Shown here in pieces: positions 144 to 40,700 of a stretch of DNA of 45,151 bases. The DNA lies in NCBI GenBank assembly GCA_017631435.1, contig JAGBTG010000014.1, positions 1 through 45,151 of the forward strand. The letters run 5' to 3'. The first letter of the stretch is position 1. Every line of letters begins with the position of its first letter. The position numbers were made by a program, and so were the translations under genes. Source of the stretch: Bacteroidales bacterium. GTDB taxonomy: Bacteria; Bacteroidota; Bacteroidia; Bacteroidales; UBA932. The notes beneath the pieces are model-generated. The model was not told the DNA's origin, did no database searches, and saw nothing but the letters and a program-made list of their open reading frames with translations.

Positions 144-896
144 TTATATCACCTCAACATCCCCCATCTGCATCCAACCCTGGCGGCCGTCTGCAATCTC
201 TACACGGCACCATTTGCCGGCCTGCTCCAGGATCTGCACTTTTGAGCCTTCATGCAGGATGAACAGGTTGTTTCCGGTGGAGTTTGGGGCACTCTTTATA
301 TTGCTTACAGGAACCATAACTATGGCAGTGTCATCACTTGTAGCATTGCGTTTCAAGCTTACAGAGAAGAGCAATGCAAAGATTGAGAAGAGGAATACTA
401 CGCATGCCAATACAAACGACAGCTTGCGGGCTCCTGTTGTAGGGGCAAACTTGAACATAAGAAGCAGCACTAGTACAGCTGCAAACAAAGCAAGCGAAAC
501 ATATCCCCAAGCATTTGATGAAAGGAGATTCCTCACCCCTTTAGTCCAGGTTGCAAGGACAAATTCAGGCACCTGATCAATTTTATCCAGGGTATGCAGT
601 CTGGCAATCTGAAGATTGTTCTGTGCATCTGCTCCCGACGGATCAAGTTTGAGTGCCTTCTCATAATAGAGGATAGCCTTACCAATCTCATCAAGTTTAT
701 AGTATGCATTTCCTATATTGTAATACAGTTTGTATGACTCGTATCCCCCATCTGCAATCTGCAGATAGTTGTCAAGTGCAGTCTGGTACTGCCCCATTGA
801 ATAGGCCTCATTGCCCTGGTTCCACAATTCACCGTTGCTCTGGGCATTCAAGGCCACAGCAGACATCAAAAAAACAAACAGCAATATCTTTTTCAT
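144..896 (-). CDS. batE: BatE: TPR and SH3-like membrane protein
   Basis: Last gene of the Bat operon. An N-terminal signal segment (MKKILLFVFL, ending near NAQ) is followed by TPR-type helices with the pattern YYNIGNAYYKLDEIGKAI. Two hydrophobic segments come next (around VSLALFAAVLVLLLMF and SFVLACVVFLFSIFALLF). The C-terminus is an SH3-like domain (SKVQILEQAGKWCRVEI, then GRQGWMQ). BatE proteins are thought to act with BatA-D at the cell envelope; the exact job is unsettled. I chose the ATG at 896 because it opens a normal signal sequence and has AAAGGGAGAG just upstream. An ATG ten codons earlier (926) would overlap batD. With the chosen start the gap to the batD stop is 19 bp. Confidence 0.85.
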   Translation of the reverse strand: MKKILLFVFLMSAVALNAQSNGELWNQGNEAYSMGQYQTALDNYLQIADGGYESYKLYYNIGNAYYKLDEIGKAILYYEKALKLDPSGADAQNNLQIARLHTLDKIDQVPEFVLATWTKGVRNLLSSNAWGYVSLALFAAVLVLLLMFKFAPTTGARKLSFVLACVVFLFSIFALLFSVSLKRNATSDDTAIVMVPVSNIKSAPNSTGNNLFILHEGSKVQILEQAGKWCRVEIADGRQGWMQMGDVEVI

Positions 897-915
897 AAGA
901 ACTCTCCCTTTACTT

Positions 916-2782: not shown

Positions 2783-4561
2783 CTACCAGTTCTTCTCCTT
2801 CTGTTTTGATTTCAACAGTTTAGCCTTCTCCTCCTTCACCTTCTCCTGAGTCCGGTTCTCCTTCTCCTGCATTGCCTGAAGCATCTGCTCTGCAGCCTGA
2901 GGGGTTATCTTAGGCTCATTCTGAGGCTGTTGCTGCTGGTCTTGTGGCTGGTCTTTCTTGTCGGGATTATCTTTATTATCCTTGTTATCTTTGTTATCCT
3001 TATTATCCTGGTTCTGGTTCTGATCCTGGTTCTGGTTTTGGTTCTGATCCTGCTGCTGTTGCTGATCCTGGTTCTGCTGGTTCTGCTGATCCTCCATCTT
3101 CTTCTTTGCGTAGATGTAGTTCTCGCGGGTCTGGGCATCTGCAGGATTGCGTCTCAGGGCATTCTTGTAGGCATCAACAGCCTCGCCGTACCTCTTCTGG
3201 GCCAAAAGCGAATTGCCCAAATTGTGGTAATAACCTGGGGCCACATCATTCTTGGCAACCTTTACGGCACCCTTTTTCCAGTCTACCTGCTGAGGCATCT
3301 TTGAAATGGTATCACCCACCTTGGCATAGATGAGTTCTGCATTTGCAGCATCATCCTGCAACATCAGAGTGTTTGCAAGGTTATAGTTTCCTGCCACAGA
3401 AAGGGAATCCTTTATGAGGGCCTTGCGGTACTCCACTTCAGCCTCCTTGTAATTTTCATCCTTAAAGAACCTGTTGCCTTTTCTAACCTCCTTACGGTCT
3501 GTCTGGGCAAAGGTACTGCCGGCGGTAAGCATAAACAGCACCGCTACCGCAAACATCTTTTTGCTTACCCTCCTGTTCCCTATGAAGAACTCCAGCAACA
3601 GGAATACCAATGCTATTGCAAAGAAATACATATACTGTTCCTCAAAATCTTCAAACACAACAGATTTGAACTGCTGTTGCTGAAGCTGTTCCAATTCATC
3701 TATTATAGGGTTGAGGCCAAACTCCGCATTACCGGCCCTCACATAGGCTCCACCACCGGCAATTGCTATCTCCTCCAGAACTTTCTCATTGAGTTTGGTT
3801 ACCACAATGTTCCCGTCCTTGTCTTTCATGAGATCTCCATCAGGGCCATAAGGGATAGGTTTACCCTCAGGGGAACCCACTCCTATACAGAATACCCTTA
3901 TGCCAACCTCCAATGCCATACGGGCTGCAGCAACCGCATCATCCTCGTGGTTCTCACCGTCGGTGATGAGGATTATGGCCTTGTTGTCCTGCTGCATCTG
4001 GGCCTCCGAGCTGAAACTCTTTATGGCAGTGTTTATTGCCTCACCCAAGGCTGTTCCCTGTACCGGAACAGACTCTGTTCCAATGGTATTGAGGAATATC
4101 TTGGCCGAAACGTAATCTGTAGTGATTGGCAATTGCACAAAAGACTGTCCTGCAAATACAATCAGGCCTATCCTGTCTCCCTGCAGCTTGTCTACAAGCC
4201 TTGAGATTGCCAGTTTGGCCCTCTCCAGCCTGTTGGGGTAGTAGTCCTGGGCCAACATTGAGTTGGAAACATCAAGGGCTATCATTATCTCAGCCCCCTT
4301 GCGGTTGCTCTCCTTCAGTGAAGCACCTATCTGGGGCCTTGCAAGTCCTATTGCAAAAAAGAACCACGCAACAGCAAAGAATGAAACCCTAACCCATCCT
4401 TTATATCTGGAGCGCTCCGGCATAAGCCTGGCCATAAGTTCAGGGTTGCCGAATTTGGCTATTTTTTTGTTCCTGCCCCTTCTGAAAAGTGCGTAGAACA
4501 CAAAGAAAAGGGGAATGAGCAATATAAGCAATAAATATTGTGCTTGTGCGAAATGTATCAT
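2783..4561 (-). CDS. batB: BatB-BatC fusion: VWA membrane protein joined to TPR protein
   Basis: A single 592-residue frame holds two proteins that are separate genes in the Bat operons I know. Residues 1-335 are BatB: transmembrane helices at about 7-26 and 58-75, a VWA domain with MIDAS residues D97-x-S99-x-S101, and a C-terminal helix at about 311-327. Residues 336-592 look like BatC: a fresh signal sequence starting at M336 (MFAVAVLFMLTAG, then FAQ), TPR repeats at about 355-475, then a low-complexity tail rich in Gln, Asn, Asp and Lys (490-550) and a charged helix. The start at 4561 has AAAGGAGG six bases upstream. An AGGAGG also lies ten bases before the internal ATG (3556), so separate BatC synthesis is possible. 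Confidence 0.88.
   Translation of the reverse strand: MIHFAQAQYLLLILLIPLFFVFYALFRRGRNKKIAKFGNPELMARLMPERSRYKGWVRVSFFAVAWFFFAIGLARPQIGASLKESNRKGAEIMIALDVSNSMLAQDYYPNRLERAKLAISRLVDKLQGDRIGLIVFAGQSFVQLPITTDYVSAKIFLNTIGTESVPVQGTALGEAINTAIKSFSSEAQMQQDNKAIILITDGENHEDDAVAAARMALEVGIRVFCIGVGSPEGKPIPYGPDGDLMKDKDGNIVVTKLNEKVLEEIAIAGGGAYVRAGNAEFGLNPIIDELEQLQQQQFKSVVFEDFEEQYMYFFAIALVFLLLEFFIGNRRVSKKMFAVAVLFMLTAGSTFAQTDRKEVRKGNRFFKDENYKEAEVEYRKALIKDSLSVAGNYNLANTLMLQDDAANAELIYAKVGDTISKMPQQVDWKKGAVKVAKNDVAPGYYHNLGNSLLAQKRYGEAVDAYKNALRRNPADAQTRENYIYAKKKMEDQQNQQNQDQQQQQDQNQNQNQDQNQNQDNKDNKDNKDNKDNPDKKDQPQDQQQQPQNEPKITPQAAEQMLQAMQEKENRTQEKVKEEKAKLLKSKQKEKNW
2940..3097 (-). repeat. in-frame tandem repeats coding Q/N/D/K tail of BatC
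   Basis: Short tandem units, roughly 6 nt (Gln-Asn, Asp-Gln) followed by 9 nt (Asp-Asn-Lys, four to five copies), encode residues about 489-541 of the BatB-BatC fusion. All units are multiples of three, so slippage would change length without shifting the frame. On the opposite strand the repeats create long hydrophobic open frames that are not genes. Confidence 0.8.
3554..3570 (-). promoter_or_regulatory. internal ribosome-binding site and start for a BatC-only product
   Basis: Reading the minus strand, AGGAGG lies ten bases before the ATG at 3556-3554, inside the fused frame (codons for R-R-V-S-K-K-M). The spacing and the signal peptide that follows suggest a retained ancestral batC start site. 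Whether it is used cannot be told from sequence. Confidence 0.5.
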
Positions 4562-4572: not shown

Positions 4573-5562
4573 TTAATCCGGTATCTGTTTAGTTACAAAT
4601 AGAACAAGAAGCATCTCCAGTACAATTGCCGCAAGTACTGCAAGTGCAAAATACATGAACAGCTCCTTATAGATTGGGAAACTGTCTACCATGGTCCTGT
4701 TCTTCTCCATCTTGTTTATCTCCCCATATATCTCAAGGAGTTTGGTATTGTCTGTGGCCCTGAAATATTTTCCGTCGGTACCCTCCGCTATGTTCTGGAG
4801 CAACTGCTCGTCAATCTCTACCTCCACCTGCTGGACATCCACTCCAAACGGGGTCATTACAGGGTATGGGGCGGTACCCTCCGCTCCTACACCAATGGTA
4901 TATACCCTTATACCGTAAGTCTTGGCTATCTCTGCCGCCATCTGCGGAGATATTTCTCCGGAGTTGTTCACACCATCCGTAAGGAGTATCACCACACGGC
5001 TCTTTGCCTGTGAATCCTTAAGGCGGGCAACTGCTGTTGCAAGTCCGTTGCCAATTGCGGTTCCGTCCTCAATGATTCCGCACTCAATCTCCTTTATAAG
5101 GTTGATGAGTGTTGCCCTGTCGGTTGTAAGGGGAGACTGCGTATAACTCTCTCCTGCAAACACCACCACTCCAATCCTGTCGGAAGGTCTCTCGGCAATG
5201 AACTGTATTGCAATGTCCTTTGCCGCACCTATTCTGTCGGGATTAAAATCCCTTGCCAGCATACTAGTGGAGACATCAAGTGCAAGGACAATGTCTATAC
5301 CCTCGGTGTCTATCTTCTCAAAGGTGGATGATGATCTTGGGCGGGCAATGGCAAGTATCATTGCAGCCAATGCCACCACTCTGCAAATGAAAGGCAGGTG
5401 TCTGGCAGCCTTCTTCAATTTTCCGCCGTTGTATTTCCATGGCATTGCCGAGGAGACAATCACATACGGACGGAGCCCCTTAACCTCCCTTATTATGTAA
5501 ACTGCCACTACCGGTACAAGCAGCAGCAACAGCCACAACAGATTTTCGTATTCAAAAAACAT
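4573..5562 (-). CDS. batA: BatA: VWA-domain membrane protein
   Basis: BatA, 329 residues. A hydrophobic N-terminus (about 8-23), a second helix (about 56-73), then a VWA domain with an intact metal-ion-dependent adhesion site (D96-x-S98-x-S100, later TDGVNNSG). A C-terminal helix (about 308-325) would tether the domain. It closely parallels the BatB half downstream, suggesting duplication within the operon. VWA domains with an intact MIDAS bind a divalent metal and mediate protein contacts; here the partner is probably the MoxR ATPase or BatB. GGAGGAG lies upstream of the ATG but is also the coding end of the previous gene, which stops 3 bp before this start. It lies 11 bp before the batB start. 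Confidence 0.9.
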   Translation of the reverse strand: MFFEYENLLWLLLLLVPVVAVYIIREVKGLRPYVIVSSAMPWKYNGGKLKKAARHLPFICRVVALAAMILAIARPRSSSTFEKIDTEGIDIVLALDVSTSMLARDFNPDRIGAAKDIAIQFIAERPSDRIGVVVFAGESYTQSPLTTDRATLINLIKEIECGIIEDGTAIGNGLATAVARLKDSQAKSRVVILLTDGVNNSGEISPQMAAEIAKTYGIRVYTIGVGAEGTAPYPVMTPFGVDVQQVEVEIDEQLLQNIAEGTDGKYFRATDNTKLLEIYGEINKMEKNRTMVDSFPIYKELFMYFALAVLAAIVLEMLLVLFVTKQIPD

Positions 5563-6640: not shown

Positions 6641-7519
6641 TTAATGTTGTTTGAACAGCGCCATCAGCCCCTTCACATAATCCTGGTCTGTACTGATGCT
6701 CACACTGTCTACCTTAAACCTGTTGAACAGGGTGGTTGAATTCCTGAGCACCTCCCTGCCCCATGTGGCATAATGGTTCCTCACTGCCTTGCTGGAGGTA
6801 TCCACCCACATCTGCTCGCCGGTCTCTGCATCCTTAATCCTCACCAGACCAATGTCGGGAAGATTCCTCTCCCTTGGATCATAGATGTTTATCACAGACA
6901 GATCATGCCTGTTCACCGCCACCTTCAGGGCCTCCTCGTAATTGGGTTTTCCCTGCTGGTCCACATCCATCAGGTCTGAAAGGAGGAATGCAGTACATTT
7001 CCTCTTAATTGCATTGGTAAGGAAACGCAATGCCTCAGAAATATTGGTACCTTTGGTCTGCGGCTCAAACTCCAGCAACTCCCTCAAAATCCTAAGCAAG
7101 TGGCTCCTGCCCTTCTTTGGAGGGATAAACTTCTCCACCTTTGAACTGAAGAAAAGTGCACCCACCTTATCATTGTTTGCAGAAGCAGAGAAAGAAAGCA
7201 CTGCAGCAATCTCAGCCAGCAGTTCCCTCTTGCTCTTTGAGGTAGTACCGAATATTCCCGACGAACTCACGTCCACCAGCAACACCACAGTAAGTTCCCT
7301 CTCCTCCTCAAACACCTTCACATACGGAGCCCTCAGACGTGCGGTAACATTCCAGTCCATATTGCGCACATCGTCACCGAACTGGTACTCCCTCACCTCA
7401 CTGAAAGCCATACCCCTACCTTTAAAGGCAGAGTGGTACTCTCCTGCAAAGATCTGATGGGAAAGAGACTTGGTCTTAATCTCAATCTTCCTTACTTTCT
7501 TAAGCAATCCGTTGTCCAT
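6641..7519 (-). CDS. DUF58 (VWA-like) cytoplasmic protein
   Basis: DUF58 family, 292 residues, with no membrane helices. The family block is clear at residues 37-61 (FSEVREYQFGDDVRNMDWN), followed by a VWA-type core with a MIDAS-like DVSSS at 83-87. A later conserved stretch is SDLMDVDQQG. DUF58 genes sit directly after moxR in a very widespread pair, and the protein is thought to be a client or adaptor of the MoxR ATPase. GGAGGAG lies five bases before the ATG. The moxR stop is 20 bp upstream, supporting coupled expression. Confidence 0.92.
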   Translation of the reverse strand: MDNGLLKKVRKIEIKTKSLSHQIFAGEYHSAFKGRGMAFSEVREYQFGDDVRNMDWNVTARLRAPYVKVFEEERELTVVLLVDVSSSGIFGTTSKSKRELLAEIAAVLSFSASANNDKVGALFFSSKVEKFIPPKKGRSHLLRILRELLEFEPQTKGTNISEALRFLTNAIKRKCTAFLLSDLMDVDQQGKPNYEEALKVAVNRHDLSVINIYDPRERNLPDIGLVRIKDAETGEQMWVDTSSKAVRNHYATWGREVLRNSTTLFNRFKVDSVSISTDQDYVKGLMALFKQH

Positions 7520-9344: not shown

Positions 9345-9360
9345 CACTCTGTCGGGAAGA

Positions 9361-9814: not shown

Positions 9815-10498
9815 TTATTTTCTGGTTACTGGAGACTGCAACATATCCATGAACTCCACAGTTACATTCTGCATCTTGAACACCACATCAGACACCTGCG
9901 AGGTAAGGAGGTTGTATCCGAAATATGCCATAATACCCACAATAAGACCGGCAACGGTGGTAACCATAGCAGTATATATTCCTCCCGACAGCAAAGTGAT
10001 GTCTATATTGCTTCCCGCCTGCGCCATATTGAAGAATGCCTGCACCATACCCATAACGGTACCCAAGAAACCGATCATTGGGGCACCACCGGCAATGGTA
10101 GCCATTAGGGGAAGACCTTTCTCAATGGCAGCCACCTCAATGTTGGCAGTGTTCTCTACAGCGGTCTGGATATCCTGCAACGGGCGGCCTATCCTCTCTA
10201 CACCTTTCTCCACCATCCTGGCAATTGGGGTATTGGTCTGTCTGCACAACTCAAGGGCCTGCTGTCTGTTTCCACCCATCACAAGTTGCTCCACCTCCTT
10301 CATGAATGAGGAATCCACCTTACCGGCTTTCCTAATCACACTCCATTTCATTGCAAAAAGATAAATTGTAGCAAAAGAAAGAAGCAAAAGTGGAATCATC
10401 AGCCATCCGCCTTTGCATGCCATATCTATCAACGAAAACTCAAGCTCCGGCTGCACTGCAACTGCAGCAACCTCAGCCTGCAAAAATGTAAACATCAT
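9815..10498 (-). CDS. exbB: ExbB/TolQ/MotA-family proton channel subunit
   Basis: 227 residues with three transmembrane helices (about 32-50, then two in the C-terminal half). The family signature GLPLMATIAGGAPMIGFLGT lies before helix 2. The pentameric ExbB forms the channel around ExbD helices in the inner membrane. The start is one of two adjacent ATG codons (10498 or 10495). A well-spaced Bacteroides-type promoter lies 22 bases upstream, so exbB-exbD is probably its own transcription unit, separate from the permease gene upstream. Confidence 0.92.
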   Translation of the reverse strand: MMFTFLQAEVAAVAVQPELEFSLIDMACKGGWLMIPLLLLSFATIYLFAMKWSVIRKAGKVDSSFMKEVEQLVMGGNRQQALELCRQTNTPIARMVEKGVERIGRPLQDIQTAVENTANIEVAAIEKGLPLMATIAGGAPMIGFLGTVMGMVQAFFNMAQAGSNIDITLLSGGIYTAMVTTVAGLIVGIMAYFGYNLLTSQVSDVVFKMQNVTVEFMDMLQSPVTRK

Positions 10499-13133: not shown

Positions 13134-13148
13134 AAAACTGTCGGGATT

Positions 13149-14122: not shown

Positions 14123-14164
14123 ACTTTCCTTCCCGACAGATTCACTCTGCAAAAGATAATTTTG

Positions 14165-15518: not shown

Positions 15519-15534
15519 GATTCTCCCGACAACT

Positions 15535-18249
15535 CTAGAATAATGTAGGTTCATCAAACTCTACAGTAGACCCAGGAGCAAATCCTTCTCCGGAAGCACC
15601 TTCGGCAGATGCCTGTGCATCTGAGTCCCCAACCTGACTGTCGGGAAGATTTTCATCTTCCGGGTCTTCTTTCTGCAGCGGCTCAATGAATTTCACACTC
15701 TCCACCTCAAATGCTGTTGCCCTCTTTCCTTTTGCCCTGAAGCCTTTCTTGCCAATGAACTCCTCAACGTCAATTGCCTCATTTTCCCTCTTGGCATGCT
15801 TGCCTCCAAAGGTGATGAGTGCCTGTGGATGCAGATCCTCGGAAAGTTCCACAAAACGGGAACCTGGGGCGTCTGAGATGAACAGCTGCGGCACATTGTC
15901 GGACGGTTCAAAAGAGAACCTCTTTATATAGTGGAATCCGGTTTCGCCGTCTACGTAGATTGCACTGAAGGTCTTCTCCTGATCGAATTTCTCCACCCTC
16001 AACAGCTCACCCTGGTAGCGGTTGCTCAAGTCAAAGTTGGTGGTGTGGTATGTACCGTCTGCACATACAACCAGGATGCGGTCGCCTGGCTGGAACTCGC
16101 CAAGTAGCCTTCCCCTTGAGTCTTCGTTCAGGCGGTTGATATCCTCGTCAAACCAGATTGGCTTGCCGCCCATAGTGGCAATGCCTTTGGTCTTGAGCTG
16201 CACCTTATGAAGCGGGTTCCTTGAAAGGATATTACCCATTGAGGCCCTGCCTTTTACTGCAAGTTCTGCAAAGTTGTACTCAAAAATCAGTTTCTTCAGT
16301 TTAGGACGCGGCTTGAGGAAAATCTTGAGGATTTCTGCCTCGCCGTTAGGATTGGCCGAGAACCATACAAGGGTTGAATCCGGCTTGCCCTGAGTTACAT
16401 CATACCATTTGTCCCTGGTAACTCCTGTAACTGCAAACCTCTTGGCATACACTATACCGGTCTTGCCGTCTGCAGAGTACTTGCCGTCCTTGTATGCCAC
16501 GTTGTATATTGTGCGGGTATCGTTCTTGAGGAACACTGCCGCATGAAGAATATCCTTTCCTACAAAGGCTTTGCTCTGTACTTTGGTAACTATGTATTTT
16601 CCGTTCTTGAGGAATACAATTATATCGTCAATATCCGAGCATTCGCACACGTACTCGGCATTCTCGTCTTTCTTGAGATCTGTACCTATAAAGCCCTCCT
16701 CCCTGTTCACATACAGTTTGGCATTGGCCACCGCAACCTTAACCGCCTCAATGGTCTCAAAGTTGCTTATCTCAGTCAGGCGAGGGTATTTATCGCCATA
16801 TTTCTTCTTGAGTTTCCTGAAGTAGTCAATTGCATAGGCTACAAGGTTGGCAAGGTTGTTCTTCACCACCTTCATCTCTGCCTCAAGCTTGGCAATCTTC
16901 TCGTCTACAACTTTCACATCAAACTTGGAGATCTTTCGCACCGGTTTCTCCACAAGTTTAAGAATATCGTCCATGATGATTGGGCGCAAAACAAGATTCT
17001 GGAACTCCAGCATCTTCTTGTGCACATCATCAAGCTGCTCCTCCCATGTGCGGGCCTCCTGCTCCAGGATGCGGTATACCTTGTTCTCAAAGAAGATCTT
17101 CTCCAGTGAGAAGTAGTGCCACTCGTTCTCCAGCTCTGCAAGACGGATCTCAAGTTCCCTCTTAAGCAGTTCTTTTGTATAGTCTGCACTGTAGCGGAGA
17201 ATCTCATCCACACCAATGAAGTGGGGATGCTTGTCCATAATAACACAGGCATTCGGCGAGATTGACACCTCACAGTCTGTGAAGGCATATAGTGCATCTA
17301 TGGTTTTGTCGGGAGAAATGTCATTGTGCAGATGGATGATGATCTCTGCGTTTGCTGCAGTGTTGTCATCTACCTTCTTTATCTTAATCTTGCCCTTGTC
17401 GTTGGCCTTGAGGATGCTCTCAATGAGGATTGAGGTGCTCTTTCCAAAAGGGAGTTCTGTGATTACAAGGGTTTTCTTGTCAAGTTTTGAGATCTTTGCC
17501 CTCACCTTTACCGCTCCGCCACGCAAGCCGCGGTTGTATTTTGAGCAGTCTATGAGTCCTCCGGTAGGGAAATCGGGGTAAAGTTCAAACTCCTCCCCTT
17601 TATAGTGTGCTATTGCAGCGTCAATTACCTCATTGAAGTTGTGGGGAAGGATCTTTGAGGCAAGACCTACGGCAATACCCTCAACACCCTGTACAAGGAG
17701 CAAAGGGAATTTCACCGGAAGGTTTACAGGCTCCTGGTTTCTGCCGTCGTAGGAGTTCATCCACTCGGTGGTCTTTGGATTGAACACAACCTCCTTTGCA
17801 AACTCGCTCAGGCGGGCCTCAATATAACGGGGTGCAGCAGCACTGTCTCCGGTAAGTATGTTACCCCAGTTACCCTGGCAATCCACAAGAAGGTCTTTCT
17901 GTCCAAGCTGCACCAGCGCATCTCCAATGGATGCATCACCGTGAGGGTGATACTGCATTGTCTGTCCAATGATGTTGGCCACCTTGTTGTAGCGACCGTC
18001 ATCAATGTTCTTCATGGCATGCATGATACGCCTCTGCACCGGCTTGAATCCATCTGTGATATGAGGCACCGCACGCTCCAGAATTACATATGAAGCATAA
18101 TCAAGGAACCAGTCCCTGTACATTCCGGTAAGTTTGTACTTGTTCTCACCGTCCTGTATAAGTTTCTCATATTTTCCCGAGTTCTCCGCTGTCCCCTCAA
18201 CAATCTCGTCCATCTCCTCCTGAGCACCTGTAATCTCTTCGTCCTGCAT
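15535..18249 (-). CDS. parC: DNA topoisomerase IV subunit A (ParC/GyrA family)
   Basis: 904-residue type IIA topoisomerase DNA-cleavage subunit. The winged-helix region carries YHPHGDASIGDALV at about 100-113. The catalytic tyrosine is Y142, next to R141 (AAAPRYIEARLS). The tower and coiled-coil regions follow, then a C-terminal beta-pinwheel of about 350 residues, and an acidic tail rich in Glu, Asp and Ser (about 860-904). The early sequence (GMYRDWFLDYASYVILERA) and the lack of a canonical GyrA box suggest the Bacteroidetes ParC type, but GyrA cannot be excluded without comparison. The parE partner is not in the window. Upstream recJ is 34 bp away, aroK 16 bp downstream. Confidence 0.9.
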   Translation of the reverse strand: MQDEEITGAQEEMDEIVEGTAENSGKYEKLIQDGENKYKLTGMYRDWFLDYASYVILERAVPHITDGFKPVQRRIMHAMKNIDDGRYNKVANIIGQTMQYHPHGDASIGDALVQLGQKDLLVDCQGNWGNILTGDSAAAPRYIEARLSEFAKEVVFNPKTTEWMNSYDGRNQEPVNLPVKFPLLLVQGVEGIAVGLASKILPHNFNEVIDAAIAHYKGEEFELYPDFPTGGLIDCSKYNRGLRGGAVKVRAKISKLDKKTLVITELPFGKSTSILIESILKANDKGKIKIKKVDDNTAANAEIIIHLHNDISPDKTIDALYAFTDCEVSISPNACVIMDKHPHFIGVDEILRYSADYTKELLKRELEIRLAELENEWHYFSLEKIFFENKVYRILEQEARTWEEQLDDVHKKMLEFQNLVLRPIIMDDILKLVEKPVRKISKFDVKVVDEKIAKLEAEMKVVKNNLANLVAYAIDYFRKLKKKYGDKYPRLTEISNFETIEAVKVAVANAKLYVNREEGFIGTDLKKDENAEYVCECSDIDDIIVFLKNGKYIVTKVQSKAFVGKDILHAAVFLKNDTRTIYNVAYKDGKYSADGKTGIVYAKRFAVTGVTRDKWYDVTQGKPDSTLVWFSANPNGEAEILKIFLKPRPKLKKLIFEYNFAELAVKGRASMGNILSRNPLHKVQLKTKGIATMGGKPIWFDEDINRLNEDSRGRLLGEFQPGDRILVVCADGTYHTTNFDLSNRYQGELLRVEKFDQEKTFSAIYVDGETGFHYIKRFSFEPSDNVPQLFISDAPGSRFVELSEDLHPQALITFGGKHAKRENEAIDVEEFIGKKGFRAKGKRATAFEVESVKFIEPLQKEDPEDENLPDSQVGDSDAQASAEGASGEGFAPGSTVEFDEPTLF

Positions 18250-22566: not shown

Positions 22567-22629
22567 ATATGTATTATTTTAATTATCAATTATTTAACTC
22601 CCGACAATTCTCCGGGAATATAAGAAACA

Positions 22630-25790: not shown

Positions 25791-28018
25791 AAGGGACACT
25801 TTACCGTGAACTCCTCAGAATCTGCAACCGCAAGAGGCTCCTTCTGGCCCCACTGGCCGTACCTCTTTTTGCCCTGCTGTTTATGGCAACCATATTCGGC
25901 AACGGCACCATTGAGGAACTCCCGGTGGGAATTGTAGACAACTCAGCCTCACCGTATTCCCGACAGATTATCCTCACTGCCCAAGCCTCCCCCACTTTGA
26001 AGATATCCACCGGGCACATCTTCAGCAATGAGAGCCAGGCCAGGGAGGCCATGCAGAAAATGGAGATATACGGCTATCTTGTTATTCCCAGTGATTTCAG
26101 TTCCAGCCTTATGGAGGGGAACCAGCCCACCATAACAGGGGTGTACCACAACGCAATGCTGGCTGCCGGAGGAGAGGTAAAGGCCGCCTTTGTAAAGGTG
26201 ATTGGAGATTTTTCAACCACCCTTATAGCATCACAGGGAAATCTTGCCGGGATATCTCCAATTGAGGTGGAGACCATTGCCATGCCCACAAACGGCATTT
26301 TCTCCTCAACCTACAACACCTCCCTCAACTACGGCACCTTCCTGGCCTATCCGTTCTTCTTCATATTTTTTCAGATATTCATACTCACCTTTACTGTATA
26401 CATCATTGGAACAGACCTTTCACCACAATGGCTCACTCCAACACAAGATAAATCTGCCATCCGCGCTCTCATGCACCTCTACGGAAGCCTTGCCGGAAAA
26501 CTCCTCCCGTACGCCTGTATATTTCTAGCTGAGACACTGCTGGCAAACTGGGTATTCTTTACCGTTGCACATACCCCTTACCAGGGAAGCCTGCTTGCCA
26601 TTATACTCAACTCCATCCTCTTCATTGGGGCTACAATGGCTCTGGGCATTGCAATAATATCCATAATTCCAAAGGTCTCCATTGCCATCTCAATAGCCTC
26701 AATGATAGGGGCTTTGGGAGCCACCGCCTCCGGTGTGACCTTCCCGGTTGAAAACATGTACCCGGTATTTCAGGCACTGTGCAGCATATTCCCCGCAAGG
26801 CATTTCATATTGGGCTACCAGGCCTCGGTTTACCTCAACGCCCCGTTTGCCCTCACATGGCACACCTATGCCATACTGCTCCTGGCCATCCCCCTCTGCC
26901 TGTGCGCAGCCCCATTGCTCCGCAGAGCCGTAAAAAACGGCCCGGGAAAACCGTTCCCGGTAATGTGGGGCACCTCCTTTGTAATCCTTGGCGGAACGGT
27001 GGGCTACTGCATCCTCTACGGCCTCCTCTATCACCCCAACATAGTTACAGAGGTGCCGATAGCCGTAATTGACAACTCGCAGACACCTGCCAGCAGGGAA
27101 TACCTGAGGAACCTGGATGCCACACAGCAGGTACATGCAGCCTATATCTGCCAGGACCTTCCACAGGCCCAATCCCTTATGCAGCAAAACATTGTAAAAG
27201 GGATTATAACTATCCCTGCCAGCTTTGCATCCCGCATTTCCCAGGGTGCTGAGGCTCCGTTTGCTGTAATCCAGACCACCACCTCATTCCTCTACTACCT
27301 CACCATACAGACCGGCATTGCCTCCACAATGCAACAGGCCAACAACACCCTACGCCAGAGCACTGTACAGGCCCTTCCCATAAGCCAGCAACTGCTCCTA
27401 TCCCAAACCCCTATGGTACAATATGACGACGTAACTGTGTACAACCACAACGGGGGATACGGCTCCTACCTGCTGCCAATAGCCCTCATTATCATCATAT
27501 TCCAGACAATGCTCATGAGCGGGGGGATCCTGGCCGGAGACCGCAGCATATCTCCGCTCAAGTTTATCCCAATGCTTGCAGGAGGATACTTTCTTCTCTC
27601 GCTGTTCATTGTAGGACTGGTACCGGAACTCTTCTCCCTCCCAGCCCTGGCCAACAGGTGGGAACTGGCCCTGTTCATGGCACTTTTTATCCTCACCACG
27701 GCAGCCTTCACAGGTGCTGTAACCCCTCTTTTCAAAGACCCCGAGGAGGTGATGCTTTATGTGCCGTTCTTCTCGGTAGGGCTCATTTTTCTGTCGGGAA
27801 GCTCATACCCAATCAACGGCATCCCCCACTTGTGGCAGATTGTGCACTATGTGTTCCCAACCTCTCCTGGAATTCTTGGATACTTGAAACTCAACTCAAT
27901 GGGAGGCTCACTGCAACACATTATCCCCCAAACGGCTACCCTCCTTGCCCAACTGCTCATATACGGATCTGTCTTCACTCTTTACCTGAGGAAGCCGGGC
28001 AAACGGAATAATTTGTAA
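25787..28018 (+). CDS. double ABC-2-type permease fusion
   Basis: 743 residues made of two similar ABC-2 membrane modules in tandem. Module 1 (about 1-385) has an N-terminal helix, an exported domain opening VGIVDNSASPYSRQ (D51-N52-S53), then five to six helices. Module 2 (about 386-743) repeats this, opening AVIDNSQTPASREYL (D429-N430-S431). Related Bacteroidetes operons usually carry two separate permease genes, so this looks like a fusion. No ATP-binding subunit is encoded in the operon; it must be supplied elsewhere, or the system works differently. It starts 4 bp before the HlyD stop, and aroE begins 14 bp after its stop. Confidence 0.9.
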   Translation: MKGTLYRELLRICNRKRLLLAPLAVPLFALLFMATIFGNGTIEELPVGIVDNSASPYSRQIILTAQASPTLKISTGHIFSNESQAREAMQKMEIYGYLVIPSDFSSSLMEGNQPTITGVYHNAMLAAGGEVKAAFVKVIGDFSTTLIASQGNLAGISPIEVETIAMPTNGIFSSTYNTSLNYGTFLAYPFFFIFFQIFILTFTVYIIGTDLSPQWLTPTQDKSAIRALMHLYGSLAGKLLPYACIFLAETLLANWVFFTVAHTPYQGSLLAIILNSILFIGATMALGIAIISIIPKVSIAISIASMIGALGATASGVTFPVENMYPVFQALCSIFPARHFILGYQASVYLNAPFALTWHTYAILLLAIPLCLCAAPLLRRAVKNGPGKPFPVMWGTSFVILGGTVGYCILYGLLYHPNIVTEVPIAVIDNSQTPASREYLRNLDATQQVHAAYICQDLPQAQSLMQQNIVKGIITIPASFASRISQGAEAPFAVIQTTTSFLYYLTIQTGIASTMQQANNTLRQSTVQALPISQQLLLSQTPMVQYDDVTVYNHNGGYGSYLLPIALIIIIFQTMLMSGGILAGDRSISPLKFIPMLAGGYFLLSLFIVGLVPELFSLPALANRWELALFMALFILTTAAFTGAVTPLFKDPEEVMLYVPFFSVGLIFLSGSSYPINGIPHLWQIVHYVFPTSPGILGYLKLNSMGGSLQHIIPQTATLLAQLLIYGSVFTLYLRKPGKRNNL

Positions 28019-28031: not shown

Positions 28032-28862
28032 ATGGCAAAATTCTCACTCATAGGAAACCCCATCTCCCACTCCAAGAGTCCTGACCTGTTCAAGGCGGCA
28101 TACGGGGAGTGCGGACACACATACACCCTCCTGGAGGCCCCAACCTGCAGGGAGGCAATCAACCGTTTCACAGGGGAAGGGTACACCGGGAGCAATGTCA
28201 CCTCCCCTTTCAAGGATGAAATAATGGATTACATTTCTCATCCCGACAGAATCTCATCCATCCTTGGCAGCGCAAACACTATCCTCCTCAAAGACGGAGA
28301 GTTCCACTCCTGGAACACAGATTATTACGGAGTGCAGAACACATTGCTTGAGCACTTTACCGGAGAGAGCGGAGCGGATACTTGCACCAACAGTGCCGCA
28401 ACATCCTCCCCCGGTCCAATGCCGGTACTGATGAACTCAGACGGAACACCTCTCAAGGCCCTTGTAATTGGAGCCGGCGGAGCTGGAAAAGCGGCTTCAC
28501 TGGCGGTAAAGGATATGGGTATGGAAGTATTCTTTGCCAACCGCAGTTCCCATGCGGCAGAACCTTTTGCAAAAAAGATTGGTGCAGAGTACGTGGGGCT
28601 TGAAAAGATTCCCCTTCTGCTCCCACAAGCAGACATAATCATCTACAACCTTTCAATGGCCATTCCACAGCTCAACGGCGTCTGTCTTGAGGGCAAAACG
28701 GTATTTGAAGCCAACTATGCCCATCCGAACCTGGCAAACAAAGGGGCTTCCAAATATATAGACGGCCGTTACTGGCTTTACAATCAGGCAATTCCGGCAT
28801 TCAGGATTTTCACCTCGCAGGAGCCGTGCACAGCGGCAATGAGAGAGGTTATGGGGCTGTAG
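28032..28862 (+). CDS. aroE: shikimate dehydrogenase
   Basis: Reduces 3-dehydroshikimate with NADPH, one step before shikimate kinase (aroK, also in this window). 276 residues. Shikimate contacts are visible: S12 and S14 in ISHSKSP, K61 in NVTSPFK, N82 in SANTI, D97 in NTDYYG. The nucleotide loop is GAGGAGKA (147-154), followed by NRS, and the end carries YNQAIPAF. An unusual Ser/Gly/Thr/Pro-rich insertion of about 30 residues (about 110-140) sits between the catalytic and NADP domains. The gene follows the export operon by 14 bp but has its own promoter-like box. Confidence 0.94.
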   Translation: MAKFSLIGNPISHSKSPDLFKAAYGECGHTYTLLEAPTCREAINRFTGEGYTGSNVTSPFKDEIMDYISHPDRISSILGSANTILLKDGEFHSWNTDYYGVQNTLLEHFTGESGADTCTNSAATSSPGPMPVLMNSDGTPLKALVIGAGGAGKAASLAVKDMGMEVFFANRSSHAAEPFAKKIGAEYVGLEKIPLLLPQADIIIYNLSMAIPQLNGVCLEGKTVFEANYAHPNLANKGASKYIDGRYWLYNQAIPAFRIFTSQEPCTAAMREVMGL

Positions 28863-29448: not shown

Positions 29449-30720
29449 ATGAAAGTAGATGTTGTACTTGGCCTTCAGTGGGGCGACGAAGGTAAAGGTA
29501 AAATCGTAGACGTTCTGGCAAATTCATACCCGGTGATCGCACGTTTCCAGGGCGGTCCTAACGCTGGTCACTCTCTACACTTTGAGGGAAAGAAATTTGT
29601 TCTTCACACTGTACCGTCGGGAGTATTCAGAAAAAATGCAACCAACATTATTGGCAACGGTGTTGTAATTGACCCTATCATCTTCAGAGAGGAGTGCGAG
29701 GGCATTGAGGCTACAGGTGTTCCTGTTAAAGAGAGAATCATGATCTCAAAGAAAGCCCATCTTATCCTTCCTACCCACAAAATCCTTGATGCCGCTTCTG
29801 AGGCTGCCAAAGGCAAATCAAAGATTGGTTCTACCCTAAAAGGTATCGGACCTACTTACATGGACAAGACAGGCCGTAACGGTTTGAGAGTTGGTGATAT
29901 CCTTACTGCAGACTTTGCAGAGAGATTCAAAACCCTTAAAGACAAACATATTGCTACCCTTTCACAGTTCGATTTCGAGTACAACGCAGAGGAGAAAGAG
30001 GCTGAGTGGATGGCAGCAATCGAGTACCTTAAACAGTTCAACCTTGTAGACGGCGAGTACGTTGCAAACAAATACTTGAACGAGAACAAGAAGATTCTTG
30101 CAGAGGGTGCTCAGGGTACAATGCTTGATGTTGACTTCGGTTCATATCCTTTCGTAACTTCATCTTCTACAACTTGTGCCGGCGTTTGTACAGGTATGGG
30201 TGTTGCCCCTACCAAGATTGGCAAGGTTTACGGTATCTTCAAAGCTTACTGTACAAGAGTTGGTAGCGGTCCGTTCCCAACAGAGCTTAACGATGAGACC
30301 GGAGAGGAGCTAAGAAGAAAAGGCTTTGAGTTTGGTGCAACCACAGGCCGTCCAAGAAGAACCGGCTGGTTGGATCTTCCTGCCCTTAAATACGCTATCA
30401 TGATTGACGGTGTTACCGAGCTTATCATGATGAAAGCAGACGTTCTTGATACATTTGAGACAATCAAGGTTTGTACCGGCTACAAAGTTGACGGTGTTGA
30501 GACCGATCAGGTTCCTTACGACACTTACGCAGAGATTGAGCCTATCTACAAGGAGTTCAAAGGATGGAACAAGGACCTTTCACAGATTACCCGTGAGGAG
30601 GAGCTTCCATTTGAGTTCATGAACTATGTAAGATTCATTGAGAAAGAGCTTAACGTTCCAATCTCAGTAATCTCACTTGGTCCTGACCGCGTACAGACAA
30701 TCTTCCGTAACGAGGAGTAA
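29449..30720 (+). CDS. purA: adenylosuccinate synthetase
   Basis: Joins IMP and aspartate with GTP to give adenylosuccinate, the first AMP-specific step. 423 residues, the normal length. The GTP-binding block GLQWGDEGKGK is at 7-17. The catalytic GGPNAGHSL, the IMP-binding STLKGIGPTYMDKTGR and the TTGRPRRTGWLDLPAL region are all intact. Codon use in this gene is noticeably different from the adjacent export operon (more T-ending and AGA codons), as in the rpo/ribosomal genes, which suggests high expression. Confidence 0.97.
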   Translation: MKVDVVLGLQWGDEGKGKIVDVLANSYPVIARFQGGPNAGHSLHFEGKKFVLHTVPSGVFRKNATNIIGNGVVIDPIIFREECEGIEATGVPVKERIMISKKAHLILPTHKILDAASEAAKGKSKIGSTLKGIGPTYMDKTGRNGLRVGDILTADFAERFKTLKDKHIATLSQFDFEYNAEEKEAEWMAAIEYLKQFNLVDGEYVANKYLNENKKILAEGAQGTMLDVDFGSYPFVTSSSTTCAGVCTGMGVAPTKIGKVYGIFKAYCTRVGSGPFPTELNDETGEELRRKGFEFGATTGRPRRTGWLDLPALKYAIMIDGVTELIMMKADVLDTFETIKVCTGYKVDGVETDQVPYDTYAEIEPIYKEFKGWNKDLSQITREEELPFEFMNYVRFIEKELNVPISVISLGPDRVQTIFRNEE

Positions 30721-31515: not shown

Positions 31516-31586
31516 TTCCCGACAGTTTTCCGCATAAAAAAACCGGACCACAAAAGTGATCCGGCCTTTCAATTATCTGTCGGGAA
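31516..31586. repeat. inverted pair of the TTCCCGACAG word around a terminator
   Basis: TTCCCGACAG (31516-31525) and CTGTCGGGAA (31577-31586) form a perfect 10-bp inverted pair with 51 bp between them, which contains the terminator at 31536-31564. Both words belong to the over-represented family described in the findings. Confidence 0.85.
31536..31564 (-). terminator. Rho-independent terminator after the thioredoxin gene
   Basis: On the minus strand CCGGATCAC, loop TTTT, GTGGTCCGG (one mismatch) is followed by a run of seven T. It lies 25 bp beyond the stop codon of the gene at 31589. On the plus strand it could also end the DUF2752 transcript, though the U-tract is poorer there. Confidence 0.85.
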
Positions 31587-32712: not shown

Positions 32713-33219
32713 TTATTTATACCACTCCTTATACATCAGATACCCCTGGGCATTCTTGTGTGCTGCCTCATATACGGCCTCCGATGAATCCTTAACCTTT
32801 TTTGCAGGGATTCCGGCATATACTCCCGGCTCAAGCACTGCATTGCTCAATACCACTGCACCTGCAGCAATTATGGTATTGTCGGGAACAACAGCATTGT
32901 CCATAATGATTGCACCCATTCCAATAAGGACATTGTTTCCAATTTTTGCTCCATGGATAATTGCGTTGTGGCCTACTGAAACATCATTTCCAATCTCACT
33001 CACAGACCTCTCATACAAAGTATGCACAACTGCACCGTCCTGGATATTCACCCTGTCACCAATCTTTATTGTATTAACATCACCTCTAAGCACTGTACCA
33101 TACCAGATACTGCAATCGTCACCCATGGTAACATCACCAATAATGGCAGCATTCTCCGCCAAGAAACAATCTTTGCCAAACTTAGGGGTAAAACCTCTTA
33201 ACTCTCTAATAATAGCCAT
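32713..33219 (-). CDS. gamma-carbonic-anhydrase-like hexapeptide protein
   Basis: 168 residues of left-handed beta-helix with repeated I-G-x-x-x units. The three metal-ligand histidines of gamma carbonic anhydrases are present at H66 (VVHT), H84 (VGHNA) and H89 (IIHG). Many relatives (PaaY/YrdA type) bind zinc but have no shown anhydrase activity; the sequence cannot settle this. The promoter at 33243-33276 is well matched. The thioredoxin lipoprotein gene follows after 14 bp. Confidence 0.92.
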   Translation of the reverse strand: MAIIRELRGFTPKFGKDCFLAENAAIIGDVTMGDDCSIWYGTVLRGDVNTIKIGDRVNIQDGAVVHTLYERSVSEIGNDVSVGHNAIIHGAKIGNNVLIGMGAIIMDNAVVPDNTIIAAGAVVLSNAVLEPGVYAGIPAKKVKDSSEAVYEAAHKNAQGYLMYKEWYK

Positions 33220-36300: not shown

Positions 36301-37674
36301 CTTACCCTCAATAAGTTTTGGCTGGAATGCCTGGATACCAAGTCTGTGAAGGGTAGGTGCACGGTTTAGAAGAACCGGATGACCTTTCATCACATTCTCA
36401 AGGATATCCCAAATTACAGGATCTTTCCTGTCTACAATTTTCTTTGCAGATTTAACGGTCTTTACAATACCGCGCTCAATCAGTTTTCTGATGATGAACG
36501 GTTTGTAAAGCTCTGCCGCCATGAATTTTGGAAGACCGCACTCGTGCATCTTAAGCTCCGGTCCAACAACAATTACCGAACGTGCAGAGTAGTCAACCCT
36601 TTTACCCAACAAGTTCTGACGGAAACGTCCCTGTTTTCCTTTCAAACTGTCAGACAAAGATTTAAGGGTTCTGTTAGCCTCTGTCTTAACTGCATTTGAC
36701 TTTCTTGAGTTATCAAACAACGAGTCTACAGCCTCCTGTAGCATACGCTTCTCATTTCTTAGGATAACCTCAGGAGCCTTAATCTCAATAAGTCTCTTAA
36801 GACGGTTGTTTCTGATGATAACCCTTCTGTAAAGGTCGTTCAAGTCTGAAGTTGCAAACCTTCCTCCATCAAGTGGAACCAATGGTCTCAACTCCGGTGG
36901 AATAACTGGAATCACCTTAAGGATCATCCACTCTGGTCTGTTCAAATCTTTAGACTCCCTGAAAGCCTCAATAACGCTCAATCTCTTAAGCGCATCAGCT
37001 TTTCTCTGCTGAGAAGTCTCAGTCTCAATTCTGCTTCTCAAGCTGTATGACAAATCATCCAAATCAACTTTGCACAACAAAGTATAGATAGCCTCGGCAC
37101 CCATACCTGCAACAAACTTGTTAGGATCTGAATCATCAAGCATCTGATTCTCTCTTGGAAGAGTGTCAAGAATGTTCAAGTACTCCTCCTCAGTAAGAAG
37201 ATCCAACTCCTTAACGCCACTCTCAGCGGCAAGACCCGGCTGGATAACAACGTATCTCTCATAATAGATGATTGCATCCAGTTTCTTGGTAGGGATACCA
37301 AGAAGATAACCAATCTTATTAGGAGTAGAACGGAAATACCAGATATGCGCTACAGGTACAGTAAGGGTAATGTGACCCATTCTCTCCCTACGCACCTTCT
37401 TCTCTGTAACCTCCACACCACAACGGTCGCAGATGATTCCGCGGTAACGGATTCTCTTGTACTTACCGCAATGGCACTCATAATCCTTTGAAGGACCGAA
37501 AATTCTCTCACAGAAAAGACCGTCTCTCTCCGGTTTATAAGTACGGTAGTTTACAGTTTCTGGCTTTAGCACCTCACCAGAAGATCTGTCTAGAATCTCC
37601 TCTGGTGAAGCAAGCCCTATAGTAATTCGGTTGAAATTGCTTTTAACCTTGTTCTCTTTCTTAAAAGACGACAT
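33397..37674 (-). CDS. rpoC: RNA polymerase beta' subunit
   Basis: 1425-residue beta' subunit. The N-terminal zinc site uses Cys67, Cys69, Cys82 and Cys85 ([19 protein letters not shown]). The catalytic loop NADFDGDQM is at 471-479, with Mg-binding D473, D475 and D477. The second zinc cluster ([16 protein letters not shown]) and the bridge/trigger helix region ([17 protein letters not shown]) are intact. It forms the active centre with RpoB. The rpoB stop is 32 bp upstream. Nothing unusual was seen in length or motifs. Confidence 0.97.
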
Positions 37675-37706
37675 ATTACCTTTTATTTCTAATTATCAAA
37701 AACCGA

Positions 37707-40700
37707 TTAGTCCAAATTTACGCTAAGTCCCAAACCTCTAAGCTCGTGCAACAACACGTTCAAAGACTCTGGAATACCTGGCTGCGGCATTGGATCACCT
37801 TTAACAATAGCCTCGTAAGCTCTAGACCTTCCAACTACGTCGTCAGACTTGATTGTAAGGATCTCCTGAAGGATGTTCGACGCACCGAATGCCTCAAGTG
37901 CCCAAACCTCCATCTCTCCGAACCTCTGTCCACCAAACTGAGCCTTACCTCCAAGAGGCTGCTGTGTAATAAGTGAGTAAGGTCCAATAGAGCGCGCGTG
38001 CATCTTGTCATCAACCATGTGGCCCAACTTGATCATATAGGTAACACCCACTGTAGCCGGCTGGTCAAATTTCTCACCTGTACCACCGTCGCTCAAATAA
38101 GTCTTACCGTATCTTGGCAAGCCTGCTTTATCAGTATAAGCGCAGATATCCTCCAAGCTTGCACCGTCAAAGATAGGAGTTGCGAACTTCACGCCCAACT
38201 CTTTACCTGCCCAACCAAGAACTGCCTCGTAAATCTGTCCCAAGTTCATACGTGAAGGCACACCTAGAGGGTTAAGTACGATATCAACGATTGAACCGTC
38301 ATCAAGGAATGGCATATCCTCGTCTCTTACCACTTTGGCTACGATACCTTTGTTACCGTGTCTACCTGCCATCTTGTCACCCACTCTGATCTTTCTCTTC
38401 TTGGCAACATAAACTTTTGCAAGCTGCATGATACCGGTTGGAAGCTCGTCTCCAATAGTAAGGTTGTACTTGATTCTCTTAAGCTCTGCGTCGTACTCCT
38501 TATGGGCAATCAGATAATTATTGATAAGCTGTTTGATCATTCCGTTTGCGTGCTTGTCGTCAGTCCACTTGGTCGGATTGATGTTCTCATAATCAATAGA
38601 ATCCAATACCTCTCTTGTAAAGTTCTGTCCTTTGGCAAGAATCTCTACACCATATAGGTCACTTACGCCCTCAGAAGTTCTGCCTTTCACAAGAATCTGA
38701 AGCTTGTCAAGGAATTTCTCCCTCAAAACGCCAGCCTTGCGGGTGAATGTATCCTCAGCCTGCTGAACCTGAGTCTTGGTATTCTGTTTTGCCTTCTTGT
38801 TGTTTGCCTCTTTACCCACTCTCGCAAACAATCTCTTGTCAATGATTGTTCCCGACAATGAAGGAGAAGCCTTCAATGAAGCATCCTTCACATCACCGGC
38901 CTTATCACCGAAGATGGCACGGAGAAGTTTCTCCTCTGGAGAAGGATCGCTCTCTCCCTTAGGGGTAATCTTACCGATAAGGATGTCACCAGGCTCAACG
39001 TTGGCACCAATTCTGATGATACCGTTCTCGTCAAGATCCTTGGTTGCCTCCTCACTCACGTTAGGAATATCTGAAGTAAGCTCCTCCATACCGCGTTTGG
39101 TATCCCTCACCTCCATGATATACTCATCCACGTGGATTGAAGTAAAGATATCCTCTCTAAGGATTCTCTCAGAAAGTACAATCGCATCCTCAAAGTTGTA
39201 ACCTTTCCAAGGCATGTATGCAACTTTAAGGTTTCTACCTAGAGCCAACTCACCTTTCTGTGTAGAATAACCCTCGGTAAGAATCTGTCCCTTAACCACT
39301 TTCTCACCTTTCTTAACGATAGGTTTCAAGTGGATTGAAGTACTCTGGTTTGTCTTTCTGTACAAAGGAAGCTTGTAAACTGTAATCTCAGGATCAAAGC
39401 TTACAAATTTCTCATCCTCTGTTCTGTCATATCTTATATGTATCTCATTACCGTCTACATAAACAATCTCACCGGAAGTTTCTGCAGACACCTGAGTTCT
39501 TGAATCTCTTACTACAGCTGCCTCCAGACCTGTACCTACAATAGGAGCCTCAGGTTTTACAACTGGAACAGCCTGGCGCATCATGTTGGATCCCATCAAT
39601 GCACGGTTAGCGTCATCGTGCTCAAGGAATGGAATCAACGAAGCAGCAATTGATGCAATCTGGTTAGGAGCAACGTCCATCAAGTGAACTGCCTCTTTAC
39701 CAACTACAGGATAATCAGCCTCAAAACGGCATTTGATTCTCTCATCGGTAAAGTTACCGTTCTCATCAATGCGTGCATTTGCCTGTGCTACTACTTTCTC
39801 TTCCTCCTCCTCGGCACTCATATAAACGGTACCTTTCTCAGACAAATCAACTACGCCATTCTCAACTTTTCTATATGGTGTCTCAATGAAACCAAGCTCA
39901 TTGATTCTTGCATAAACACACAACGAAGAAATCAAACCGATGTTCGGACCCTCTGGAGTCTCAATCGGACAAAGTCTACCATAGTGTGTGTAGTGAACGT
40001 CTCGAACCTCGAAACCTGCCCTGTCCCTAGAAAGACCTCCAGGTCCCAAAGCAGACAGACGTCTCTTGTGGGTCATCTCAGCAAGAGGGTTGGTCTGGTC
40101 CATGAACTGCGACAACTGGCTGGTACCAAAGAATGAATTGATAACTGAAGACAAAGTCTTTGCGTTGATAAGGTCAATTGGAGTAAATACCTCATTGTCC
40201 CTTACATTCATTCTCTCCCTGATAGTTCTTGCCATACGTGCAAGACCTACGCTGAACTGGTTTGCCAACTGCTCACCTACAGTTCTGATCCTTCTGTTGC
40301 TCAAGTGGTCGATATCATCAACGATAGCCTTTGAGTTGATAAGCTGGATCAGGTATCTGATAATCTCAATGATGTCAGATTTTGTAAGTACTCTCACATC
40401 ATTAGGAGTTGACAAATTCAGCTTCTTGTTTAGACGGTAACGTCCTACTCCACCCAAATCATATCTCTTGTCTGAGAAGAACAGTTTGTCAATCACGTCT
40501 CTTGCAGTAGCCTCATCAGGTGGTTCTGAGTTTCTAAGCTGTCTGTATGTATAGAATATAGCCTCTATTTCAGAGTTACACTGGTCTTTCTGTAGAGTAT
40601 TGTGGATGATTGCGTAATCACTAGTATTCGCATCCTCATTGTGGATAAGAATTGTGCTTACATCTGAATCCAGGATGTCCTCAATATGGCTCTCCTCCAA

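Follow-up and report, generated by a model that had tools for sequence, protein, structure and literature searches.

GTCGGGA-type words in the window

The window analysed here, a stretch of 45,151 nucleotides, includes genes for a topoisomerase/gyrase subunit A, a RecJ-type protein and rpoB, and is interspersed with copies of the heptamer GTCGGGA/TCCCGAC (Table 1). The initial annotation had singled out this word as a possible uptake-type signal. All 25 copies that it listed, 13 on the plus and 12 on the minus strand, were recovered at exactly the same coordinates; the 14 copies of the longer word CTGTCGGGA and the three of CTGTCGGGAAGATT were confirmed as well. In 100 dinucleotide shuffles of the window the heptamer reached a mean of 2.77 and a maximum of 10 copies, and CTGTCGGGA a mean of 0.16 and a maximum of two; under a second-order model GTCGGGA-type words were the most over-represented ones at lengths 7 to 10. 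Seven of the 25 heptamers were indeed intergenic by crude gene calls, part of these assignments hinging on the gene start chosen, but the non-coding share of the window, previously put at about 4%, came to 9.9% by the crude calls.

Table 1. Copies of GTCGGGA and of the longer word CTGTCGGGA in the window
Word	Coordinates	Strand	Basis or context
GTCGGGA	633..639	-	sequence count
GTCGGGA	2960..2966	+	sequence count
CTGTCGGGA	5234..5242	+	sequence count
GTCGGGA	6854..6860	+	sequence count
GTCGGGA	7256..7262	-	sequence count
CTGTCGGGA	9349..9357	+	between convergent genes
CTGTCGGGA	9983..9991	-	GTCGGGA core identical in all five aligned loci (L233, L234, L235, L236, L292)
CTGTCGGGA	13138..13146	+	between tandem genes
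CTGTCGGGA	14131..14139	-	outside crude gene calls
GTCGGGA	15524..15530	-	outside crude gene calls
CTGTCGGGA	15638..15646	+	in topoisomerase/gyrase subunit A gene (15535-18249, -); followed by AGATT
GTCGGGA	17308..17314	+	in topoisomerase/gyrase subunit A gene (15535-18249, -)
CTGTCGGGA	19208..19216	-	in RecJ-type gene (18284-20035, -)
CTGTCGGGA	19421..19429	-	in RecJ-type gene (18284-20035, -)
GTCGGGA	19499..19505	+	in RecJ-type gene (18284-20035, -)
GTCGGGA	22599..22605	-	outside crude gene calls
CTGTCGGGA	24164..24172	+	followed by AGATT
CTGTCGGGA	25958..25966	-	sequence count
CTGTCGGGA	27791..27799	+	sequence count
CTGTCGGGA	28241..28249	-	sequence count
GTCGGGA	29616..29622	+	sequence count
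CTGTCGGGA	31517..31525	-	outside crude gene calls; orientation opposite to the copy at 31577
CTGTCGGGA	31577..31585	+	outside crude gene calls; followed by AGATT
GTCGGGA	32881..32887	+	sequence count
GTCGGGA	38850..38856	-	in rpoB gene (37707-41528, -)

Abundance, form and placement in the genome

The assembly to which the window belongs comprises 2,166,856 bases in 59 contigs and is 88% complete. CTGTCGGGA occurs in it 485 times (254 forward, 231 reverse), compared with 17 occurrences of the word with its letters reversed; a genome-wide frequency near the Markov expectation, which the initial annotation had named as evidence against its reading, is thus not what is seen. Further counts were made in a sample of 435,503 bp of the same genome, window included, where a third-order model predicts 2.1 copies of CTGTCGGGA and 19.3 of GTCGGGA, whereas 118 and 284, respectively, were found. 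Such massive genome-wide over-representation of a short word is characteristic of the uptake words known as DUS and USS.

Within the motif, the positions TCGGGA are strict, each single substitution leaving 0 to 5 copies in the sample. The first three places of CTGTCGGGA tolerate T for C (61 copies), C for T (35) and A for G (14), respectively, and ATCGGGA is present in 81 copies overall. The sequence logo of the window's genome reads YY[G>A]TCGGGAnnA, with more A's downstream; that of G034, a single-contig relative sampled as 21 stretches of 20 kb, reads CTGTCG[G>C>T]GA, where position -4 is A and positions +9 to +15 are rich in A. CTGTCGGGA is non-palindromic and its A-rich extension lies on one side only. 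The USS core of Haemophilus has an AT-rich tail downstream.

Codon pairs in 174 gene calls were compared with expectations conditioned on amino-acid pairs and codon use. The pair CCC-GAC was used 90 times (9.2 expected), in 87 of these cases preceded by T, and TCG-GGA 74 times (10.2 expected); these are the two strongest excesses among codon pairs with at least eight occurrences. The corresponding dipeptides show no such bias: Ser-Gly is found 418 times against 418.3 expected and Pro-Asp is over-used 1.2-fold only, compared with a 7 to 10-fold excess of the codon pairs. With these two codon pairs leading the ranking once amino-acid content is accounted for, CTGTCGGGA is a DNA-level signal. The copies do not share flanking sequence or lie mostly between genes, as REP- or MITE-type repeats would: the 30 nt to either side of the copies are unrelated, with a mean identity of 0.28 and 36 or more matches out of 60 in just 3 of 40,186 pairs, and 57 of the 284 GTCGGGA copies are intergenic by crude gene calls, which assign 14.6% of the space to intergenic DNA. 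The density in gaps shorter than 600 bp is nevertheless about twice that in coding DNA (1.26 vs 0.61 per kb; p 0.0002), with RTCGGGA amounting to 1.68, 1.33 and 0.68 per kb in tandem, convergent and divergent gaps, respectively. GTCGGGA-type sites are spaced slightly more evenly than random ones (coefficient of variation 0.82 vs 0.92; 2.6% of 500 random sets were equally even).

The orientation of the word had been described as balanced. This holds for the chromosome strands, both orientations being used in equal number on a 233-kb contig (79:79) and both occurring throughout the 21 stretches of G034, as is typical of DUS and USS; it does not hold relative to genes, where 141 copies are antisense and 86 sense (435 kb), an excess for which differing Pro-Asp and Ser-Gly codon use may suffice as a cause. 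When scored in 20-kb bins, the G-rich strand of the window's genome carries 144 copies vs 140 on the other strand, where composition predicts 153.8, and that of G034 carries 99 vs 71, where composition predicts 94.4 (p 0.04 against one half). Because the bias is no more than composition gives, polarity of the Chi or KOPS kind is absent, and the strong strand bias along replichores that was to point to such sites does not apply. Orientation neither follows replication, as that of Chi does, nor shows the strong polarity toward the terminus of KOPS, and both are disfavoured on this ground.

Frequent inverted pairs that serve as terminators are a trait of DUS and USS. Pairs of opposite orientation at most 40 bp apart are not enriched here (8 vs 6.2 expected; 2 vs 2.3 in G034). 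Four intergenic inverted pairs do fold, their hairpin stems measuring 9 to 13 base pairs or more, yet a terminator function was rejected for want of an excess, and the earlier remark that several copies lie beside terminators does not generalise, terminator-like pairs being found at chance frequency.

Dialects, conservation and history

CTGTCGGGA reaches 100 copies or more in 12 of the 37 genus genomes (range 125 to 717) and numbers 3 to 75 in the others. Word discovery in stretches of CTGTCGGGA-poor genus genomes revealed a second word, ATCGCYGAG, along with the palindromic ATCGCGAT; ATCGCYGAG is present in 274 to 817 copies in 11 of the 37 genomes and in 63 to 88 copies in four more. Not one of the 37 genomes holds at least 100 copies of both words, and 14 hold that many of neither; related species thus use different dialects, as in DUS and USS, here in 12 and 11 genomes without overlap. 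In some CTGTCGGGA-poor genomes (e.g. G002, G008 and G019) no comparably strong word was discovered. More than 100 copies of CTGTCGGGA were found in none of the 294 other genomes sampled in the order.

Genomes of relatives were also counted, starting from 49 of 78 named loci. Six were enriched in CTGTCGGGA (L233, 156 copies; L234, 220; L235, 334; L236, 317; L292, 125; L303, 241), and the remaining 43 contained at most 62 copies. The six enriched relatives belong to Bacteroidales, and four of them are linked to cattle or deer gut.

The sites of the window are preferentially retained in relatives. Fully kept were 10 of 12 sites in L233, 8 of 13 in L234, 6 of 15 in L235, 5 of 12 in L236 and 9 of 10 in L303, whereas any 7-mer is kept in 20–29% of cases in these five, the aligned DNA being 76–82% identical. 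In more distant loci the numbers fell to 2 of 9 (L292) and 2 of 6 (L276), with a background of 13–15%. With frame-matched Ser-Gly and Pro-Asp places elsewhere as a control, 30 of 44 sites were kept vs 18 of 116 control places when the five relatives are summed, counts that are non-independent owing to shared ancestry; the same control gave 2 of 8 vs 3 of 14 for L292 and 2 of 5 vs 0 of 17 for L276. Conservation is weak in L292 although its genome is word-enriched.

A tree of topoisomerase A comprised 50 rows, with G034 and G001 not among them; 35 of the rows carried no label. The seven labelled CTGTCGGGA rows constitute one side of a branch, and so do the eight labelled ATCGC rows, whose labelling relied on counts in 20-kb loci. 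Beside L292, inside the CTGTCGGGA side, lie Candidatus Egerieousia (L239) and L276, albeit with the word only about twofold above the control; given this placement, loss of CTGTCGGGA is likely. In addition, the word-rich G034 and G001 (topoisomerase A 64–66% identical) are more distant than the word-less G008 and G035 (68%), so that the word was lost more than once or gained twice.

Of the 21 stretches of G034, the two poorest in GTCGGGA hold one and two copies (mean 8.1). Both include sugar-transferase or polysaccharide genes, accompanied in one by a restriction methylase and a RhuM-family gene and in the other by ordinary genes, e.g. of the histidyl-tRNA-synthetase type. Their GC contents are the third-lowest (0.382) and the lowest (0.376), the second-lowest stretch (0.380) holding six copies. 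Such stretches are suggestive of acquired DNA, but low GC alone cuts the chance of the word.

Competence genes and the possible role of the word

Of the genus genomes searched, 22 of 23 contain ComEC and 36 of 37 contain DprA; for genomes of other families the corresponding numbers are 13 of 14 and 22 of 24. The core competence genes that accompany DUS and USS are therefore present, albeit with a short ComEC: the frame in the window's genome is 479 aa long and ends at position 236 of 270 of the Competence domain, compared with mostly near 700 aa in other families. Both genes are equally common in genomes without the word and their presence does not track it.

Known uptake-word systems rely on type IV pili. 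The type IV pilus/type II secretion ATPase (PF00437), used here as the marker of a pilus, was above the cut-off in 13 of 14 control genomes but in none of the 23 genus genomes searched out of 37, a set that includes the window's genome but not G034. A type IV pilus with a minor-pilin receptor, as in DUS and USS systems, was accordingly not found in these 23 genomes.

Riemerella anatipestifer belongs to the same phylum and has ComEC and DprA in common with the genus. According to the portion of the study cited here, its transformation requires ComEC, DprA, ComF and RecA, two outer-membrane partners, one with DUF5689 and the other a barrel that contains a carboxypeptidase-regulatory-like domain, as well as a helix-hairpin-helix protein and a DUF1343 protein; that portion mentions no uptake word (PMC8459023). 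DUF5689 and CarboxypepD_reg barrel genes are likewise present in relatives of the window's genome. In six genomes (G011, G017, G021, G014, G019 and G030) a DUF5689 gene, a barrel gene of 1067–1076 aa and a third gene are adjacent, and in the operons of L133 and L138 their domains are BACON-DUF5689-Endonuclease_NS, an OMP_b-brl_4 barrel plus CarboxypepD_reg, and BACON plus a weak match to an OB fold, respectively. G027, of the ATCGC dialect, has a run of genes for a BACON-Endonuclease_NS protein, an enzyme of the endonuclease/exonuclease/phosphatase family, a 980-aa protein with CarboxypepD_reg and a short protein with DUF5689. Unlike in Riemerella, DUF5689 had no match in the window's genome (88% complete), the barrel match was weak and N-terminal, and the operon was not found; one small nuclease with a hydrophobic N-terminus is present. 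The close form of the operon occurs in three of the 12 word-rich genomes (G011, G017, G021) and equally in G014, G019 and G030, which have 33 to 54 copies of CTGTCGGGA. As a receptor of CTGTCGGGA it is thus unsupported, and we regard these operons as leads for the genus, not as the identified reader of the word. Each of the 11 genomes that reach 100 copies of ATCGCYGAG has the short DUF5689 gene, as do two of the 26 others; however, with the labelled ATCGC rows all on one side of a branch in the tree, descent alone may explain the association. A small PF01223 nuclease is present in nine of the 12 word-rich genomes and five of 25 others, and was not found in G034, G009 and G001.

Judging from these sequence data, there is about an even chance that CTGTCGGGA is a self-recognition word for natural transformation, i.e. 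a DNA uptake signal. In this reading, free DNA that carries CTGTCGGGA would be recognised by a receptor at the cell surface, DNA of close kin would then be taken up preferentially, and recombination of the imported DNA would maintain and spread the word, which would accumulate on either strand, in hundreds of copies, where coding constraints permit. Altered receptor specificity would yield dialects, with CTGTCGGGA in some species and ATCGCYGAG in others.

The uptake-type reading of the initial annotation provides the best fit to the abundance, two-strand use, DNA-level origin, conservation and dialects of the word. Its motif shape, short-gap enrichment, slightly even spacing and lack of polarity beyond composition also speak in favour, as does the presence of ComEC and DprA; the word-poorest G034 stretches, with their polysaccharide or restriction/RhuM genes, are suggestive only. 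Against it stand the pilus ATPase, seen above the cut-off in none of 23 genus genomes, a ComEC that ends inside the Competence domain, competence genes that do not track the word, inverted pairs at chance frequency and the antisense excess. The weak conservation in L292 and the 14 genus genomes with neither word at 100 copies point the same way, as do the operons, which some word-less genomes possess but which were not seen in that of the window.

DUS of Neisseriaceae, the receptor of which is ComP, share with CTGTCGGGA, in the part of that work drawn on here, small size, non-palindromic form, hundreds of copies within and between genes, and dialects that vary among related genomes, for the most part in line with phylogeny (PMC3630211). 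The same source gives thousands of copies for Kingella and Simonsiella, compared with 125–717 here; moreover, CTGTCGGGA and ATCGCYGAG differ by more than single bases, the phylum is another one, and uptake is here putative. With the USS of Pasteurellaceae, as far as the cited part of the report describes them, CTGTCGGGA shares a 9-letter core, dialects and a motif extending past the core, whereas the letters of the word are unrelated (PMC12616744). CTGTCGGGA was not filed under the DUS/USS family because defining features looked for were not found. It resembles an uptake sequence in the tested sequence-level respects, inverted pairs excepted, and differs from those already described in that it belongs to another phylum and that no pilus was found.

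Alternatively, CTGTCGGGA might be bound or modified inside the cell, by a DNA-binding protein or a methylase, options that the initial annotation also named. Candidates are a nucleoid organiser, a segregation factor or a self-marking modification that needs about one GTCGGGA per 1.5 kb throughout the genome, with dialects tracking changes in the protein concerned. We consider this unlikely but not negligible. The even spread, two-strand use and lack of an inverted-pair excess fit such a site as well as they fit uptake, no uptake receptor was identified in the window's genome, and ATCGCGAT of the other dialect is palindromic. CTGTCGGGA, however, is non-palindromic with a one-sided A-rich extension. 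HIP1 of cyanobacteria, a hyper-abundant short octamer of debated role, is palindromic; CTGTCGGGA is similarly short and very abundant but differs in this respect, ATCGCGAT being the element that would match. Exclusive switching of words inside a genus is, furthermore, a documented trait of uptake sequences in the cited part of the DUS study (PMC3630211).

A Chi-type site, regulating RecBCD or AddAB in double-strand-break repair, would also be short, abundant, non-palindromic and chromosome-wide, and Chi words vary from bacterium to bacterium; it is nonetheless improbable in view of the missing polarity in both genomes, the enrichment within intergenic gaps and the two exclusive words of one genus. 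It is hardly credible that the word merely reflects protein motifs, codon bias or a family of dispersed repeats, which would account for its abundance only; protein motifs and codon bias are rejected by the codon-pair excess without a matching dipeptide excess, and a repeat family by the unrelated flanks.

To our knowledge, uptake words are on record for two families only, both of them pilus-based proteobacteria, and a search by titles and abstract openings, with most subscription papers and all preprints outside its scope, returned no paper on such words in Bacteroidota. Returning to the uptake signal, it is a tentative proposal, which we hold with less than even confidence, that CTGTCGGGA represents a third, independently evolved system, in Bacteroidota, in which a single genus uses two or more mutually exclusive dialects and no type IV pilus takes part, the word perhaps being read by outer-membrane barrels with nuclease partners such as the operons of relatives encode; barrel- and DUF5689-type proteins are needed for Riemerella transformation in the cited portion of that study (PMC8459023). 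If true, a third case of uptake words, in gut Bacteroidales, would mean that self-tagging of genomes evolves repeatedly, and that transformation is a regular event in this uncultured group from animal guts. Word-tagged DNA would then offer a handle for the genetics of this group, and comparison of the dialects a route to the receptor.

Uneven occurrence of the word in the window and outside the genus

Copies of GTCGGGA, the core of the nine-letter uptake-signal candidate CTGTCGGGA, are unevenly spread along the window, with a single copy in the 12 kb of the rpoB/rpoC end (32888-45151) versus 24 in the first 33 kb, a scarcity that is perhaps due to lower tolerance of copies in highly expressed genes. 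In another family, G113 and G322 contain 62 and 64 copies of CTGTCGGGA in 2.1 Mb, compared with 7 and 6 copies of the reversed word, and a third genome from their genus (G227) contains 5. G113 and G322 represent a possible weak second occurrence of the word.

Other words and repeats

Stretches of two further genomes, G018 and G012, displayed raised counts of ATCGCGA and ATCGGGA together, and ATCGCYGAG, the other dialect word, was not abundant in either (28 and 83 copies, respectively); this pattern might perhaps constitute a further dialect. Within 14 kb of locus L044 from G014, a relative poorer in CTGTCGGGA, 29 copies of CATCTGAAC were found, which probably form a local repeat array.

Candidate acquisition genes

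The ComEC frame of the window's genome ends inside the Competence domain, and frames of 357-479 aa are common across the genus. In each of G034, G009 and G032, a barrel paralogue has a gene resembling S-adenosylmethionine synthetase as its neighbour; a gene of this type also adjoins the DUF5689 operon in G011.

Coordinates of candidate genes and gene runs
Feature	Genome	Location
Short ComEC frame	window's genome	L066:91-1530
Barrel paralogue (~1130 aa) next to S-adenosylmethionine-synthetase-like gene		L313:9661-13074
Same		L315:3396-6782
Same		L323:9057-12461
Operon-like run: BACON, DUF5689, DNA/RNA nuclease, TonB-receptor-like barrel	G011	L133:9279-16818
Same	G014	L138:3878-11459
Same	G027	L136:4366-10661

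The runs in the word-rich G011, in G014 and in the ATCGC-dialect genome G027 look like an outer-membrane system for nucleic-acid acquisition.
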